Origin: a virus
Length of the DNA stretch: 41,643 nucleotides
Strand: one strand, 5' to 3'
Virus record (IMG/VR): IMGVR_UViG_3300004163_000005
Location: 1 to 41,643 of that record
The notes under the pieces are model-generated. The model saw only the letters and a list, made by a program, of their open reading frames with translations, was not told where the DNA came from and searched no databases. Both the position numbers and the translations under genes were made by a program. Positions 28,632 through 41,583 of this stretch are shown piece by piece (the stretch's first letter is position 1; each line of letters begins with the position of its first letter).

Positions 28632-28657
28632 CCGCCAATGAGACCAATCATTGGCGG
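28632..28657 (-). other. Hairpin upstream of the antirepressor ribosome binding site
   Basis: On the minus strand CCGCCAATGA and TCATTGGCGG form a perfect 10-bp stem with loop TTGGTC. It ends about 18 bases before the AAGGA of the Bro-N gene. The loop word TTGGTC recurs upstream in the leader (ATTGGTCTC), so alternative pairing with the leader is possible. Confidence 0.65.
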
Positions 28658-28827
28658 TGAGCTGAACGGGGTTGGTCTACCAGTCCAAGGGCTGGCCGCC
28701 CCGAAGGGCGCCCCGCCCAGCCCACCATAAAGGAAACGCTGAACGTTGCGCATAAAAAAACCGCATGAAGCGGCGTTTCATACGCCCTGGAAACCGAGAG
28801 ACCAATCCCGTGCTGAGCAATGCCAGC
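28634..28827 (-). ncRNA. C4/Ash-like structured leader RNA upstream of the antirepressor
   Basis: On the minus strand the leader carries a short hairpin followed by T7 (CCGC-TTCAT-GCGG), then the phrase ATGCGCAACGTTCAGCG and TTTCCTTTATGGTGGGC, and a nested stem, GGGCTGGGC pairing with GCCAGCCC around CGCCC-TTCG-GGGCG. This arrangement resembles leaders annotated as c4 antisense RNA or ash-family regions upstream of phage antirepressors. A 68-codon ORF (28753-28547, start MRNVQRFLYGGLGG) overlaps the Bro-N start in another frame, like the orfx/ant arrangement in P1. The match is from memory; a covariance search would decide. Confidence 0.45.
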
Positions 28828-36664: not shown

Positions 36665-38665
36665 TTATTCATTGCCGGCAGCCCGCTGGCCGTCGTCCAT
36701 AAATTTCTGCATTGTTTCCAAGTAGCTCAATTTCTCCGTTTGCCGGCTAAAATCCCCGCCATCAACGACAATCCGCTTTAATGGCTCGACCGTTTGAGCC
36801 GGCGTTAACTCCACGCGCTTTAACACCTCGCCGTCGATGACATGGCCGCGTTCGGCATTGGCGCGATCGATCTTTTCCTGGCCGCGCTTGATCATGCCGT
36901 CGATGCGTCCTTCTTTAAGGGCATCGATTTTCGATTCGGCAAAACCTTTAACCTTGTTGGCCTCGAACTCGGCAACACAAATGGCTCGGCCGTCCAGATC
37001 GCTGATCCAAACCTGGTTGGCATCGCTTAAGTCATACGCCAGCCGTACCTTGGTATTGGCCGGAAGCTCCGCCAGCGCCGGGTTAAAATAAATATTGTTG
37101 TTCCAGCGCACTTCGCCCCGAAATGGCGTCCGGATCACAAACGGCCGGTACAGCGTAAGCGTCTCGTCGTCCGTTAACGGACAATGCCAGCTCTGGTCGA
37201 AATTGGCTTGATAAGCCTCGGCCGGAGTTCTGCCGCCTAATTCACTGTGTTGATGCGCGTTGTTGTACCAGTCGATGCGCGCCTCGACTTGCACCATAAA
37301 ATGATTCCAAGCCGGTACAAAATCAGGCACATCGCCTTTGCTTTTAGCGCGGTTGATCGCTTGCGTGTTTCTGCGCAAGGTATCGCCATCCATGCCCGTG
37401 CCCTGGAAGGTCGGGAACGTTTTTGCCACGGCAATGGTGGTAATGTCCCAAAGCCCTTCAATGATGCCGCGCCCTTGCGGATTACCAGGGCGACCGGTTT
37501 CGTGCTCCACTCCCAGCCGAGCCAACATGCCGCCCACCGGGCAATCGATGATTTTGGCGGTTTGGCCGGAACCGTTATCGCTGTAATAAATCAGCGGCTT
37601 GCCGTGTTTGATCATGGCTTTGCCCAGCGCCTCGGAAACGGCAATCTGGTTTTCCGATAAGCTGAATGCCCGGCCCACAATGAACCGGCTGGCCGCGTCG
37701 ATAATGAACGTCACTTCCGGCGCGAACGGTTGACCATGATCGGGATGGCGCACCTTGGCTTTAAAGGTGTGGCCGTCGCCGACCCAGACTTCATTGCTCA
37801 TGCCGGACCAATCCCGGCGTGTAAACGGCCGCAACGCAGCCAGTTCCGAGCCGGTCGAACGCCCAATAGCCAGCACGACTTGAGGAATCTTTTTTTGCAG
37901 CCGGCAAATCACGTCGTAATCCGGGCACTTTTCGGTAAAGCCTTGCGCTTGCCAGGCCTTTTCAAAGTCGCGGTGCGCCTCGCGTAACGACGGCTTTTGC
38001 GGCTTGCGGTAAAAGCTCAAGAACAGTGCCAGCCACCATTTACCCCGCCAGTCTTCCTTTTGCCGAATGCCCGGCGCCAACTGCTTGCCTGAGCTTTTCT
38101 CCTGATTCCAGCGCTCCAGCGAGCGCCGTGAAACCAGTTCCCCGTCATTTCGCTTCACGCCCCGCGTTTCCCGAGCCAGTAGCATGCTATCCATTAGCTC
38201 GCTCTCCAATTCCCCGGCCGCTGCTTTTGCGATTAGATGATCGGCAGCCTTGCCAAAGCTCCAGCGCATTTGCAAGGCCATGACGCGCACGTTATGCACC
38301 AAGTGATGACGGGCCTCGTTAACCTTGCGTTGGCGTTCGGTTAGATTTTCCAGTGGCGTGACTGAGGCCGGTGCTAGGTGCTGCGCTTTTTCCTCAGCTG
38401 GAATTACTGCTGCAGGCTCGGTTTCGGCCGGTTTTTGTAGCGCTTGTAGAATGGTCGATGCGCGTCGATTGAGCATGGCTTCACGGATGGCTTTGGGTAG
38501 CGCCTTAATCAGAAACCACTTCTTTTTGTGCTTGCCACGGCTGTTTTCAAAGACGCATTGCCAATTCTCATTAATCGCCTGCCTCGTAACAGAGCTTTTA
38601 TGCTTGCAGATTACTACCGCGATCTCATCGGCATTGGCATACAGAGTTTTATCGATCTCACTCAT
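36665..38665 (-). CDS. A: MuA-like DDE transposase
   Basis: This 666-residue protein catalyses phage integration and replicative transposition. The N-terminus is a Mu-type winged DNA-binding domain (LYANADEIAVVICKHKSSVT, QCVFENSRGKHKKKWFLI). The catalytic core has the DDE triad D297 (VGDGHTF), D363 (YSDNGSGQ) and E403 (GRGIIEGLWD), and the C-terminal Mu transposase domain runs to about residue 560. The C-terminal tail (MIKRGQEKIDRANAERGHVI onward) probably contacts MuB. The gene overlaps the DUF5131 gene by 8 bases. Confidence 0.95.
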   Translation of the reverse strand: MSEIDKTLYANADEIAVVICKHKSSVTRQAINENWQCVFENSRGKHKKKWFLIKALPKAIREAMLNRRASTILQALQKPAETEPAAVIPAEEKAQHLAPASVTPLENLTERQRKVNEARHHLVHNVRVMALQMRWSFGKAADHLIAKAAAGELESELMDSMLLARETRGVKRNDGELVSRRSLERWNQEKSSGKQLAPGIRQKEDWRGKWWLALFLSFYRKPQKPSLREAHRDFEKAWQAQGFTEKCPDYDVICRLQKKIPQVVLAIGRSTGSELAALRPFTRRDWSGMSNEVWVGDGHTFKAKVRHPDHGQPFAPEVTFIIDAASRFIVGRAFSLSENQIAVSEALGKAMIKHGKPLIYYSDNGSGQTAKIIDCPVGGMLARLGVEHETGRPGNPQGRGIIEGLWDITTIAVAKTFPTFQGTGMDGDTLRRNTQAINRAKSKGDVPDFVPAWNHFMVQVEARIDWYNNAHQHSELGGRTPAEAYQANFDQSWHCPLTDDETLTLYRPFVIRTPFRGEVRWNNNIYFNPALAELPANTKVRLAYDLSDANQVWISDLDGRAICVAEFEANKVKGFAESKIDALKEGRIDGMIKRGQEKIDRANAERGHVIDGEVLKRVELTPAQTVEPLKRIVVDGGDFSRQTEKLSYLETMQKFMDDGQRAAGNE

Positions 38666-39506
38666 GCTTTACACCCGGATAACCGTTATATTCAACACCA
38701 TCTATCAGGCGTCCGGACTGCTTTTTCCCAACTCTACATACAGATGTATCAGGGTCAAAGTTATGCCATATCTTTCCCTTAACACCCGGCTCATTGCATC
38801 GAAGCTCATGTACTGGCGCCCACTCACCCCATTGCTTGAACAAAAATGGAACTTCGGCGGCAATGCATTGATCGCGCAACGATCTAACCCAGTCTGGATG
38901 CATCGGTCTCGCATTAGGTCCGGACTCGCCACCGACAACCACCCAGTCAAGTCCGTTCGGAATATGACCACTGCGAATGTCAACCTTACCAAGCAGCGGC
39001 TCAGCGCTAATCCAATGCACAGCAGCAGGCGCAGACAGCAGTAGCGGTATGCGCTCGCTGGCGGTTTTTTGATCTTCAACCGATACACCAAGCCAAACAT
39101 TAGGCATTAATTCAGCAAAACCTTCCTTTGCCTCATCACCCCAATAATCAAAAAACTCAAGCACTCTTGCAGGGCGCTTTGTCAACACTTGGTAAATATG
39201 TCGCGGAGCCTGTTGCATACTCACCATCACTCGATGAATAAAATCAAACGGCACCGATTCATGAAACAAGTCAGACATTGAGTTAACGAATATCAGTCGA
39301 GGCTTTTGCCAGCGCAATGGAATTTCAAGCCTGTCATAATGCCAGCGAACATCGGTAAATTTACGCCCGACGTAGGCCGGAACCTTTGCCATTCTCGGCC
39401 AGTCGCGTTCGGCGTAACAATATTTGCAGCCTTGAGACATCTTGCTACAGCCAGTTACCGGGTTCCATGTGGCGTCAGCCCATTCGATGTTTGTTTTAGC
39501 GCTCAT
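38658..39506 (-). CDS. DUF5131 (phage Gp37/Gp68) family protein
   Basis: This 282-residue protein has the family signature NIEWADATWNPVTGCSKMSQ with CKYCYAERDWPRM; the cysteines at 20, 27 and 30 form the three-Cys motif. This motif recalls the iron-sulfur region of radical-SAM enzymes, though no reaction is established. Later blocks are RPARVLEFFDYW, NVWLGVSVEDQ, WISAEPLLGKVD and WVVVGGESGPNARPMHPDWV, all typical of the family. The start overlaps the upstream stop (ATGA); a longer in-frame start to 39596 lies inside that gene. Such a gene between ner and A is not part of the Mu core. Confidence 0.92.
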   Translation of the reverse strand: MSAKTNIEWADATWNPVTGCSKMSQGCKYCYAERDWPRMAKVPAYVGRKFTDVRWHYDRLEIPLRWQKPRLIFVNSMSDLFHESVPFDFIHRVMVSMQQAPRHIYQVLTKRPARVLEFFDYWGDEAKEGFAELMPNVWLGVSVEDQKTASERIPLLLSAPAAVHWISAEPLLGKVDIRSGHIPNGLDWVVVGGESGPNARPMHPDWVRSLRDQCIAAEVPFLFKQWGEWAPVHELRCNEPGVKGKIWHNFDPDTSVCRVGKKQSGRLIDGVEYNGYPGVKHE

Positions 39507-39946
39507 TTTCCACCACTCATAGCTTGCTTGATTGCTTTCTCTTGCAGGCGCAATTGATTCTTCAATGCTTCCAACTTGCCCAGTTGCGCCTCCCAAACCT
39601 CTTTGCCTACACTCAATTTTGCACCGCGTAAATCGGCAATCCAGGCGGTAATATCGTGTGTCTCTAATGCCACTTCCAACGCCGGCAAATACTCCAGCGG
39701 AAAACGCCAGCCTTCACGGCTTTCCGCTGTCCAGCTATCCAATTGGTGCTTGGTAATCTCGTGACCGACCAACTCGCTCATCTTGGCTGCGATCTGGTAA
39801 CGGCTTAGCGGCGACAGCTTGATTAGCTCGCTCAGTAAACTCCGCAGCTGCGCACCAATATCTAATGATCCCGGCTTACCGCCGCGTTCGACCGGCACAA
39901 CTACCATGTCAAATAAATCGACTGTCAATGGATCACGCGCCTTCAT
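39503..39946 (-). CDS. Ner-adjacent DNA-binding-like protein
   Basis: This 147-residue protein (PLTVDLFDMVVVPVERGGKP, LSRYQIAAKMSELVGHEITK, HQLDSWTAESREGWRFPLEY) matches a family found immediately after ner in many Mu-like prophages. The phrase YQIAAKMSELVGHEITKHQL reads as a helix-turn-helix. The ATG at 39946 overlaps Ner by 14 bases; a GTG two codons upstream is possible. Its role is unknown, perhaps early transcription control. Confidence 0.75.
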   Translation of the reverse strand: MKARDPLTVDLFDMVVVPVERGGKPGSLDIGAQLRSLLSELIKLSPLSRYQIAAKMSELVGHEITKHQLDSWTAESREGWRFPLEYLPALEVALETHDITAWIADLRGAKLSVGKEVWEAQLGKLEALKNQLRLQEKAIKQAMSGGK

Positions 39947-40289
39947 GTTCACGAAGCCGCTGATCTTTTACATTGACGCCGGGAGCGAAACGCTTAAACT
40001 TTAAACCTCTGAAACCGCGTGGCTTAGGTTCGCCATTCTCGTAGTAGCGGCTGGGCCAAATGTCCTTGGGATGCAAGCCCAAGGCAGCAGCAATGCGTTT
40101 TTCAGAGGCGGGGTAGCTTTGGGTGAGTGCGCGCGATAAGGTGGTGCCTGTCGACAGATTGTGCTCTTCGGCCAATGCCTTCATTGTCCACCCTGCCTTA
40201 TGCAGGGCGGCGACAACGTCGGAAGGGTGCCAATCCTCGGCAGGGGGTTCTGCCGCAGGACTGGCTTTTTTTTCGGTTTGGGTAGTCAT
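39933..40289 (-). CDS. ner: Ner-like early regulator
   Basis: This 118-residue protein has a classic Ner/Nlp domain at residues about 20-85: DWHPSDVVAALHKAGWTMKA, LAEEHNLSTGTTLSRALTQ, SYPASEKRIAAALGLHPKDI and WPSRYYENG. Ner of Mu represses the early and repressor promoters by binding between them. The ATG at 40289 fits the early promoter at 40326-40354; a longer in-frame start at 40382 would sit upstream of the -10 and is rejected. The 14-bp palindrome inside that promoter is the likely binding site. Confidence 0.92.
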   Translation of the reverse strand: MTTQTEKKASPAAEPPAEDWHPSDVVAALHKAGWTMKALAEEHNLSTGTTLSRALTQSYPASEKRIAAALGLHPKDIWPSRYYENGEPKPRGFRGLKFKRFAPGVNVKDQRLREHEGA

Positions 40290-40325: not shown

Positions 40326-40354
40326 ATTAAACTCCAAAATTTTGGATACGTCAA
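40326..40354 (-). promoter_or_regulatory. Early promoter Pe, sigma-70 type
   Basis: TTGACG (-35, 40354-40349), 17 bases, TTTAAT (-10, 40331-40326) read on the minus strand. The ner ATG lies about 37 bases downstream of the -10. This is the best sigma-70 match in the intergenic region and faces the early operon. Confidence 0.75.
40333..40346. promoter_or_regulatory. 14-bp palindrome in the Pe spacer, probable Ner operator
   Basis: TCCAAAATTTTGGA is perfectly self-complementary and lies entirely between the -35 and -10 of Pe. A protein bound there would block RNA polymerase. Ner is the most likely ligand; a second repressor cannot be excluded. Confidence 0.6.
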
Positions 40355-40378
40355 CACAATAAACACCTAAATTTTTAT

Positions 40379-40387
40379 GCATTAATT
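40379..40387 (+). promoter_or_regulatory. Repressor operator-like half-site near Pe
   Basis: GCATTAATT matches eight of nine bases of the GCATCAATT half-site that builds the operators at 40446-40508. It lies about 25 bases upstream of the Pe -35. Confidence 0.35.
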
Positions 40388-40415
40388 CGTAGTTAGCCTA
40401 ATTTATGGAGTCAAT

Positions 40416-40511
40416 ATGAAATTAAAACTAAATCAATTGCTTAGGATTGATGCGCGCGCATCAATTAAAATCAGCGCCTTGCATCAATTCCACCAAGGAA
40501 TTGATGCATGA
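40416..40511 (+). CDS. 31-residue leader ORF upstream of the repressor
   Basis: An ATG with GGAG five bases upstream (40407-40410) opens 31 codons (MKLKLNQLLRIDARASIKIS... to GIDA). The TGA overlaps the repressor ATG (ATGA at 40508-40511). The ORF runs through both palindromic operators, so its sequence is largely dictated by them. Translational coupling to the repressor or attenuation of its translation is likely. It could also be an incidental ORF, but the Shine-Dalgarno and overlap argue otherwise. Confidence 0.5.
   Translation: MKLKLNQLLRIDARASIKISALHQFHQGIDA
40446..40465. promoter_or_regulatory. 20-bp perfect palindrome, repressor operator candidate
   Basis: ATTGATGCGCGCGCATCAAT is fully self-complementary and built from two inverted copies of the half-site GCATCAAT. 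It lies upstream of the repressor gene inside the leader ORF. It is most likely an operator for the S24-type repressor. Confidence 0.65.
40480..40508. promoter_or_regulatory. Inverted repeat over the repressor ribosome binding site
   Basis: TGCATCAATTCC (40480-40491) and GGAATTGATGCA (40497-40508) are perfect 12-bp arms around ACCAA. The right arm contains most of the AAGGA site (40495-40499) and ends on the A of the repressor ATG. As DNA it is an operator pair; as RNA it would form a stem that hides the ribosome binding site. Confidence 0.65.
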
Positions 40512-41410
40512 CAATTGGAACCAGATTAAAGGAATGGAGGGCCTCAAAAGACCTAAGTCAAAAGGACGCAAGCTCCATTTCTGGAGTATCGTTTAGCACA
40601 TACCAAAATTATGAAATGGATATAAGTCCTCCAGGAGCTAAATCACTAACAGGTTTTATTAACGCTGGAATTAATGCCAATTGGTTAATGACTGGCGAAG
40701 GGCCGATGCTACTGGAAGATGCCGTGCAGCTGCCGCCCGGCCTGAGAATCAAGATAGACAACATAAAAGCTGAAGGCGGTGATCAAGAAGCGGCGGCTCG
40801 CCGACAAGCGGATACGCTTCAGCTTTGCGCCGAATTTAAAGAAGCGCAAAGCCTCATTACAACAATAACCAATGAAATAGGCGTTGCTCTACCTAAAAAA
40901 ACATTCGAAAGCTTTATGGAGCTGTTATGGCTTAGTGCGGGCGAGAAAAGCGATTTGGTAAAATCAGCTGTTGCGGAACTGTCAACATATATAGATCAAC
41001 TGGCTCTGGTGCCGTTTTATGATGTAGAAGCCTCGGCCGGTCATGGTTCACTGGTTGATCAAGAGCAGCAAATCAGCCAAATGGCCTTTAGAAAGGATTG
41101 GTTAAAACAAAAAGGCCTGCAATCCAATAAATGCGCGCTAATCAAGGCCAAAGGTGACAGTATGGAGCCCACTATCTATGATGGCGACTTGCTGTTGGTG
41201 GACGTCAGCATTGACAGCATTAAAGATGACTCGATTTATATAATACAAGCCGATCATCATCTTAGCGTCAAACGCATACAGCAAGACTTTGACGGCTCAC
41301 TGATAGTTATCAGTGATAATCCGCGTTATGAAAAGCGTATAATCAGCTCAGTGCAAGCAAAAGAGGTAAAAATTGCGGGGCGCGTAAGGTGGTACGGCCA
41401 TGAAATATAA
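40508..41410 (+). CDS. S24/LexA-like phage repressor
   Basis: This 300-residue protein maintains lysogeny. The N-terminal helix-turn-helix spans about residues 5-60 (RLKEWRASKDLSQKDASSIS). The C-terminal S24 peptidase domain has the catalytic Ser218 (KAKGDSMEPTIYDGD) and Lys255 (HHLSVKRIQ). An Ala177-Gly178 pair (DVEASAGHGS) is a candidate self-cleavage site, so induction by RecA and DNA damage is likely. This differs from the Mu c repressor, which is not a LexA-type protease. AAGGA at 40495-40499 is the ribosome binding site. Confidence 0.92.
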   Translation: MTIGTRLKEWRASKDLSQKDASSISGVSFSTYQNYEMDISPPGAKSLTGFINAGINANWLMTGEGPMLLEDAVQLPPGLRIKIDNIKAEGGDQEAAARRQADTLQLCAEFKEAQSLITTITNEIGVALPKKTFESFMELLWLSAGEKSDLVKSAVAELSTYIDQLALVPFYDVEASAGHGSLVDQEQQISQMAFRKDWLKQKGLQSNKCALIKAKGDSMEPTIYDGDLLLVDVSIDSIKDDSIYIIQADHHLSVKRIQQDFDGSLIVISDNPRYEKRIISSVQAKEVKIAGRVRWYGHEI

Positions 41411-41583
41411 TTGCGCCAAATAAACAACAAAAATAATCGGTTTAAGCTAATTTTCCGACAAATGACGCGCAATCAATAAATTGAGTAAAATTTAAGCAAA
41501 AACTAAGCTCAGCTTAATCATCCCGCCACTTCCGGCCAAATCCCCGTTAATCCCTCTTTACGACATATATCTCGCTTCTTCAC
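41411..41583. other. Prophage left-end terminal region, no gene
   Basis: These 173 bases after the repressor hold no gene. GCCAAAT occurs at 41415-41421 and 41535-41541, and TTAAGC words recur (three times, two direct and one inverted). The outermost bases read inward on the minus strand GTGAAGAAGCGAGATATATG, similar to the Mu right-end TGAAGCGG style. Transposase binding sites are expected here. Confidence 0.5.

Follow-up and report, generated by a model that had tools for sequence, protein, structure and literature searches.

A five-site array in the translated repressor leader of Mu-like phages is a probable transposition enhancer

An early region with a five-copy array

The DNA analysed here (the window, 41,643 nt) is a single IMG/VR virus record with a Mu-like early region at its right end, where a transposase, a DUF5131 gene, a regulator and a Ner-like HTH_35 protein are read leftward and a repressor with HTH_3 and Peptidase_S24 domains is read rightward:

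36665..38665, minus strand: Mu-A-like transposase (domain matches)
38453..38665, minus strand: winged-HTH N-terminus of the transposase (residues 1-71), which is proposed to read the array (predicted fold, top match 1tns)
39503-39952: regulator neighbouring Ner
39933..40289, minus strand: Ner-like HTH_35 regulator (domain matches)
40508..41410, plus strand: repressor, HTH_3 plus Peptidase_S24 (ORF and domain matches)
41414..41431, plus strand: candidate transposase end-binding site CGCCAAATAAACAACAAA (motif common to L002 and L003)
41456..41473, plus strand: another such candidate site, weaker (42 bp further on, 5 mismatches)

The two candidate end sites adjoin the repressor on its right, and their motif recurs with the 42-bp spacing in the two close relatives of the window, L002 and L003. 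Between the transposase and the early regulator lies the DUF5131 gene (38658-39596, minus strand), of which the L002 and L003 loci showed no homologue.

Upstream of the repressor, the following elements are interleaved:

40378..40387, plus strand: array element R0, TGCATTAATT, near the predicted repressor transcript start
40407..40410, plus strand: Shine-Dalgarno GGAG of the leader ORF (GGAG in both close relatives too)
40416..40511, plus strand: leader ORF of 31 codons, ATG at 40416; its stop TGA (40509-40511) overlaps the repressor ATG (40508-40510) as ATGA
40431..40443, plus strand: candidate IHF site AATCAATTGCTTA, a perfect consensus match, between R0 and R1'
40445..40454, minus strand: array element R1', CGCATCAATC in R orientation
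40457..40466, plus strand: array element R2, CGCATCAATT
40480..40489, plus strand: array element R3, TGCATCAATT
40499..40508, minus strand: array element R4', TGCATCAATT in R orientation

The five elements, copies of one short sequence that we call R, were assigned by comparison with relatives and with a template. The original prediction had recognised much of this arrangement: the 31-codon ORF with its Shine-Dalgarno site and ATGA overlap is present where claimed, as are the two perfect palindromes inside it, one of 20 bp (40446-40465) and one with 12-bp arms (40480-40491 and 40497-40508) set 5 nt apart. The second palindrome does span the repressor ribosome site, since it includes AAGGA (40495-40499) as well as the initial A of the repressor start codon, to which R4' extends, and the upstream near-match, GCATTAATT at 40379-40387, proved to be the fifth member of one fixed-geometry array. 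Chance is a poor account of these repeats: exact GCATCAATT occurs four times in the window (three at the leader region) against 0.69 expected, a count reached by 0 of 100 shuffles, and in three phages, 20,000 dinucleotide shuffles of each leader yielded no case with palindromes equal or better at both observed axes. An Rfam C4 antisense RNA (28650-28732, minus strand, 72 bits) lies elsewhere in the window, where L065 has similar DNA; inspection by eye found no exact R within it, and a link to the leader was likewise not found.

L002 and L003 can be aligned with the window nearly gap-free from the early promoter to the repressor, and both keep the 31-codon leader, GGAG and the ATGA overlap. The palindrome axes are also kept, with a different sequence in each phage: R is GCATCAATT in the window, GAGCGCAAT in L003 and GACCGCAAT in L002, some copies having single deviations, and the fifth, upstream copy changes along with the rest. 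In the L003 record, five of the six occurrences of the pattern GAGCRCAAT fall at the array. Among the three close relatives, 12 of 22 stem pairs are changed on both sides (0/500 shuffles as high), and cross-pairing 1:3 and 2:4 is as good as 1:2 and 3:4; all copies are therefore held to one sequence. The L003 repressor (L003:5001-5702) keeps the HTH half and has its S24 half swapped for an unrelated C-terminus.

Such covariation, strong in both pairings, could also be the mark of an RNA attenuator or translational switch. The original prediction had included an RNA stem and attenuation; in the version weighed here, R1':R2 and R3:R4' would alternate with 1:3 and 2:4 and the R3:R4' stem would hide the repressor start. 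The window RNA folds better than its shuffles (z -3.6) and R4' adjoins the repressor start codon in many loci, both of which fit. Against this, stem mismatches in 16 arrays are divided about equally between G-U and A-C (4 vs 4 for 1:2, 3 vs 2 for 3:4), not the pattern of an RNA-level constraint that tolerates the one and not the other; with no G-U bias, selection is probably not acting on RNA stems. Only some relatives fold unusually well (z +0.5 in L103), and in three loci with shifted arrays (L130, L135, L138) the repressor start lies in a loop with the R0-R3 spacing still kept. The arm order R'-R-R-R' allows no classic 2:3 antiterminator, and no terminator-like site was found in the window leader, which thus does not combine the exclusive 1:2, 2:3 and 3:4 pairing with the terminator of an attenuator. 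We consider an RNA switch very improbable.

Fixed geometry across Mu-like phages

Relatives were gathered by a Ner scan, which gave 68 loci (L105 being the L003 contig, L110 the L002 contig and L112 the L103 contig); a transposase scan over viral contigs gave no matches, and a scan of genome contigs gave weak relatives of the repressor S24 half and nothing else. Each locus was scored against a rigid five-arm template with spacings learnt from the first cases (maximum score 50). Six loci were too short; of the 63 that could be scored (the window and 62 from the Ner scan), 22 scored 41-50, and the best of 1,890 shuffles reached 38. The other 41 fell below the template, and in seven of them (L107, L109, L111, L113, L115, L124 and L138) the array is visible by eye with an arm missing or shifted. 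This layout thus recurs in about 20 related phages, and almost every one has an R of its own. In the open-licence literature we found no description of the five-copy array.

The spacing is tight. Relative to the repressor ATG, classes I and II place R3 at -27 and R4' at -8; R2 is found at either -50 or -40, a jump of 10 bp, and R0 lies 102-105 bp from R3; in L130, L135 and L138 the whole array is shifted into the first repressor codons with the R0-R3 distance unchanged. This looks like a DNA-level constraint, in keeping with the near-equal G-U and A-C counts in the stems. R0 often departs from the other copies by a transition at a central base, as though a weaker site were being maintained (window, L105, L110, L138, L113).

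The IHF-type site is called by its match to WATCAANNNNTTR, which we take to be the IHF consensus. A perfect consensus precedes R1' in 9 of 24 loci against 0.32 expected, and one with at most one mismatch in 14 of 24 against 4.58 expected; in the remaining 10 of 24 the match is poor (at least 2 mismatches). Matches fall mostly at a single position, 15 nt before R1'; relative to the repressor ATG, most class I loci have the site at -77. From this consensus, IHF would be expected to bind within the array.

Which protein reads R

R-sequence distances were compared with protein distances by Mantel tests in 18 template-selected, non-duplicate phages; L117, L118 and L148 were set aside as near-duplicates, and L132 since its transposase N-terminus was not found. 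The values are moderate and the phages in the set are related to each other; the R register and repressor starts were partly assigned by hand, that of L142 being a guess. R followed the transposase N-terminus (r 0.42, p 0.0001), and this held given Ner (0.37, p 0.0002), the repressor (0.40, p 0.0002) or the neighbouring regulator (0.50). The transposase catalytic core, a proxy for descent, had no predictive value for R (0.11, p 0.18, 15 phages); controlling for it left the tie to the N-terminus in place (0.36, p 0.0018, 15 phages). An earlier run with hand-picked R in 23 and 19 phages agrees (0.33), the R register of L116 and L137 being off there. By these sequence distances, R appears to track the transposase N-terminal winged helix across phages, and not the repressor or Ner, which suggests that the transposase binds R. 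Two post hoc associations in small samples concern the fourth helix position: glutamine there goes with GTTG in R (4/5 vs 0/13, p 0.0016), whereas phages with arginine tend to have CGC at a fixed place in R (6/8 vs 1/10, p 0.013).

R might instead be bound by Ner, which in Mu is the Cro-like regulator of the corresponding region, or by the regulator next to it (39503-39952); either would then shut off the repressor gene. Before control, R does show ties to Ner (r 0.22, p 0.04) and to the neighbour (r 0.21, p 0.04), but both fade once the transposase N-terminus is controlled for (0.08, p 0.27 and 0.12, p 0.12), and the tie of R to the transposase survives the converse control. This makes a Ner or neighbour site extremely unlikely.

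The original prediction read the palindromes as operators through which the repressor would control its own gene. An array of half-sites downstream of the likely repressor promoter would suit autoregulation, and the repressor N-terminus does show a weak correlation with R (r 0.26, p 0.023). The close relatives speak differently: the repressor recognition helix is identical in the window, L002 and L003 (residues 22-47 are nearly all invariant), and one helix would have to read three different R sequences, which is evidence against the repressor as the reader. Conversely, L128 and L133 agree in R and in the transposase helix and differ in the repressor helix. The half-sites are also oppositely oriented in the two palindromes, R'-R in the first and R-R' in the second.

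A palindrome that tracks the repressor much better lies in the leftward early promoter:

40326..40331, minus strand: candidate -10, TTTAAT, of the early promoter (from consensus)
40333..40346, no strand assigned: palindrome TCCAAAATTTTGGA in the early-promoter spacer, likely repressor operator (identical in L002 and L003)
40349..40354, minus strand: candidate -35, TTGACG, 17 nt from the -10 (from consensus)

Across 22 phages, including L120, whose spacer is probably wrong, this palindrome follows the repressor HTH (r 0.57, p 0.0002); it does not track Ner or, given the repressor, the transposase (0.13, p 0.056). The early-promoter palindrome is thus, by sequence covariation, the likely repressor operator, and we regard it as highly unlikely that the leader palindromes have that role.

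A probable enhancer in a leader proposed to be coupled to the repressor

The transposase N-terminus that R appears to follow was modelled with AlphaFold2 (window residues 1-71, 19 rows, pLDDT 86.5). Its top solved match is 1tns, the MuA DNA-binding domain (TM 0.78; Z 8.9, rmsd 2.4, 66 aligned), followed by 1qpm, the Mu repressor DNA-binding domain (Z 8.1); Foldseek E-values, weak for so small a domain, were 0.015 and 0.018, and the Pfam Mu DNA-binding model matched 1 of 23 transposase N-termini (E 0.0035). In this model, the window transposase N-terminus is folded like the MuA enhancer-binding domain.

In Mu, an IHF site lies between O1 and O2. The array resembles Mu enhancer E, the internal activation sequence (O1-O2), in position, lying between the repressor gene and the early promoter and near the left end; in build, with copies of one short site in two clusters around an IHF site (here called by consensus); and in its proposed reader, a domain with the predicted fold of MuA subdomain I-alpha. 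Papers on Mu describe the transpositional enhancer as bound by MuA subdomain I-alpha (PMC3362531), the ends and the enhancer E (O1-O2) as bridged by six MuA subunits (PMC3562280), and the enhancer as located in an AT-rich segment beside the repressor gene (PMC5977238); a further one reports a specific IHF site in the Mu genome that affects early transcription, with a figure legend naming an operator/enhancer (PMC3820752).

Mu enhancer sites double as repressor operators, and a shared operator-enhancer, with transposase and repressor competing for R, has this precedent, along with the Mu repressor domain as second-best fold match and a residual correlation between R and the repressor after control for the transposase (0.21, p 0.056), a weak tie. 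The regulatory frame is also that of Mu, with divergent repressor and ner genes and the early promoter between them. In place of the MuA-like winged helix of Mu repressor c, however, the window repressor is of another family, HTH_3/S24, with its likely operator in the early-promoter spacer, seemingly a different palindrome from the array, and relatives with the same repressor helix have different R. By comparison, then, enhancer sites and repressor operators do not coincide here, and a Mu-style shared operator-enhancer seems very unlikely.

Comparison establishes, at the level of sequence, the array, its fixed geometry, the concerted change of its copies, their tracking of the transposase N-terminus and an open leader frame. 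The reading that we hold to be highly probable is that the five-site array is a Mu-type transposition enhancer, set apart from the repressor operator, in a translated leader coupled to the repressor. R0, the IHF site, R1', R2, R3 and R4' would together form the internal transposition enhancer of the phage, read, as in Mu enhancer E, by the N-terminal winged-helix domain of the MuA-like transposase; by analogy with Mu, the array would stimulate transposition. The repressor would use its own operator in the early-promoter spacer. The earlier idea that one stretch is both DNA site and coding leader would thus stand, with the transposase most likely replacing the repressor as the protein concerned. 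The array also departs from the Mu enhancer in having five strictly spaced sites of one sequence, with R differing between lineages, and in extending across a translated leader as far as the repressor start.

Coupling of the leader to the repressor start, also part of the original prediction, was supported by the reading frames. Of the 69 loci, 25 (the window plus 24 from the scan) had a repressor start assigned and entered the leader-frame test; 18 of them begin ATGA. The coupled frame, taken over 28 codons, contained no stops in 18 of 18 ATGA loci, and the other two frames were open in 2/18 and 5/18 (31 and 19 stops); at non-ATGA repressor starts it was open in 1/7, so that coupling is not universal. 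Most loci have an ATG or GTG giving leaders of about 30-40 codons. A stop/start overlap with the upstream frame kept open is thus present, as in termination-reinitiation coupling, known with an ATGA overlap, for example, from Mu com-mom. The leader peptide is not conserved, the codon differences between L002 and L003 being 11 nonsynonymous and 2 synonymous.

Since the last site of the array sits on the repressor start, at the usual place of the ribosome site, the repressor would be made by termination-reinitiation from the leader ORF, which is read straight through the proposed enhancer. We read this as R4' taking up the ribosome-site position and the leader supplying ribosomes to the repressor start. 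No Shine-Dalgarno was seen before the repressor start in L002 and L003; the window retains AAGGA 8 nt before the ATG, so that independent initiation is possible there, which counts against coupling. Repressor translation may depend on translation of the leader. Like com-mom, the locus has a stop/start overlap, a start region in an inverted repeat and an own ribosome site that is weak or absent; unlike com-mom, it has as its upstream ORF a short leader that encodes an unconserved peptide in DNA proposed to be the enhancer. None of seven repressor N-terminal or full-length matches checked in plasmids and phages (drawn from nine fetched records, L091 and L093 left out) had an ATGA-coupled leader with a Shine-Dalgarno site; members of this HTH family therefore do not share the layout as a rule.

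With this arrangement, an array occupied by transposase would impede repressor synthesis, and the enhancer in its turn would be impeded by traffic along the leader. We tentatively extend this, at clearly less than even confidence, to an enhancer freed from repressor control and built into the repressor leader, which would make lysogeny and transposition physically exclusive and give each lineage its own enhancer-transposase code. If so, repressor transcription and translation would sweep transposase off the enhancer, and transposase on R0-R4' would block repressor synthesis; the code would be a second specificity, independent of repressor immunity, keeping co-resident phages from using each other's enhancers. 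Immunity and enhancer recognition, fused in Mu, would be separated here; what would be new with respect to Mu is that operator and enhancer are separate, that five sites with a lineage-specific R keep a strict geometry, and that the leader is translated. Such a design suggests that a lysogeny switch can be built from a recombination enhancer placed in a translated leader, and would offer a sequence-only route to enhancers and their recognition code across Mu-like phages, where in Mu biochemistry was needed.

Six reference phage records were also passed through a loose repeat finder (a seventh, OK490420, was left out), and no inference was drawn from these phages. For Mu the finder returned six 8-mers, at most one mismatch being allowed. 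In D3112 (L174, around 895, at the cI start, minus strand), four AAGRCGGAAC-like copies surround the repressor start, one of them within the gene, and may be the D3112 enhancer.
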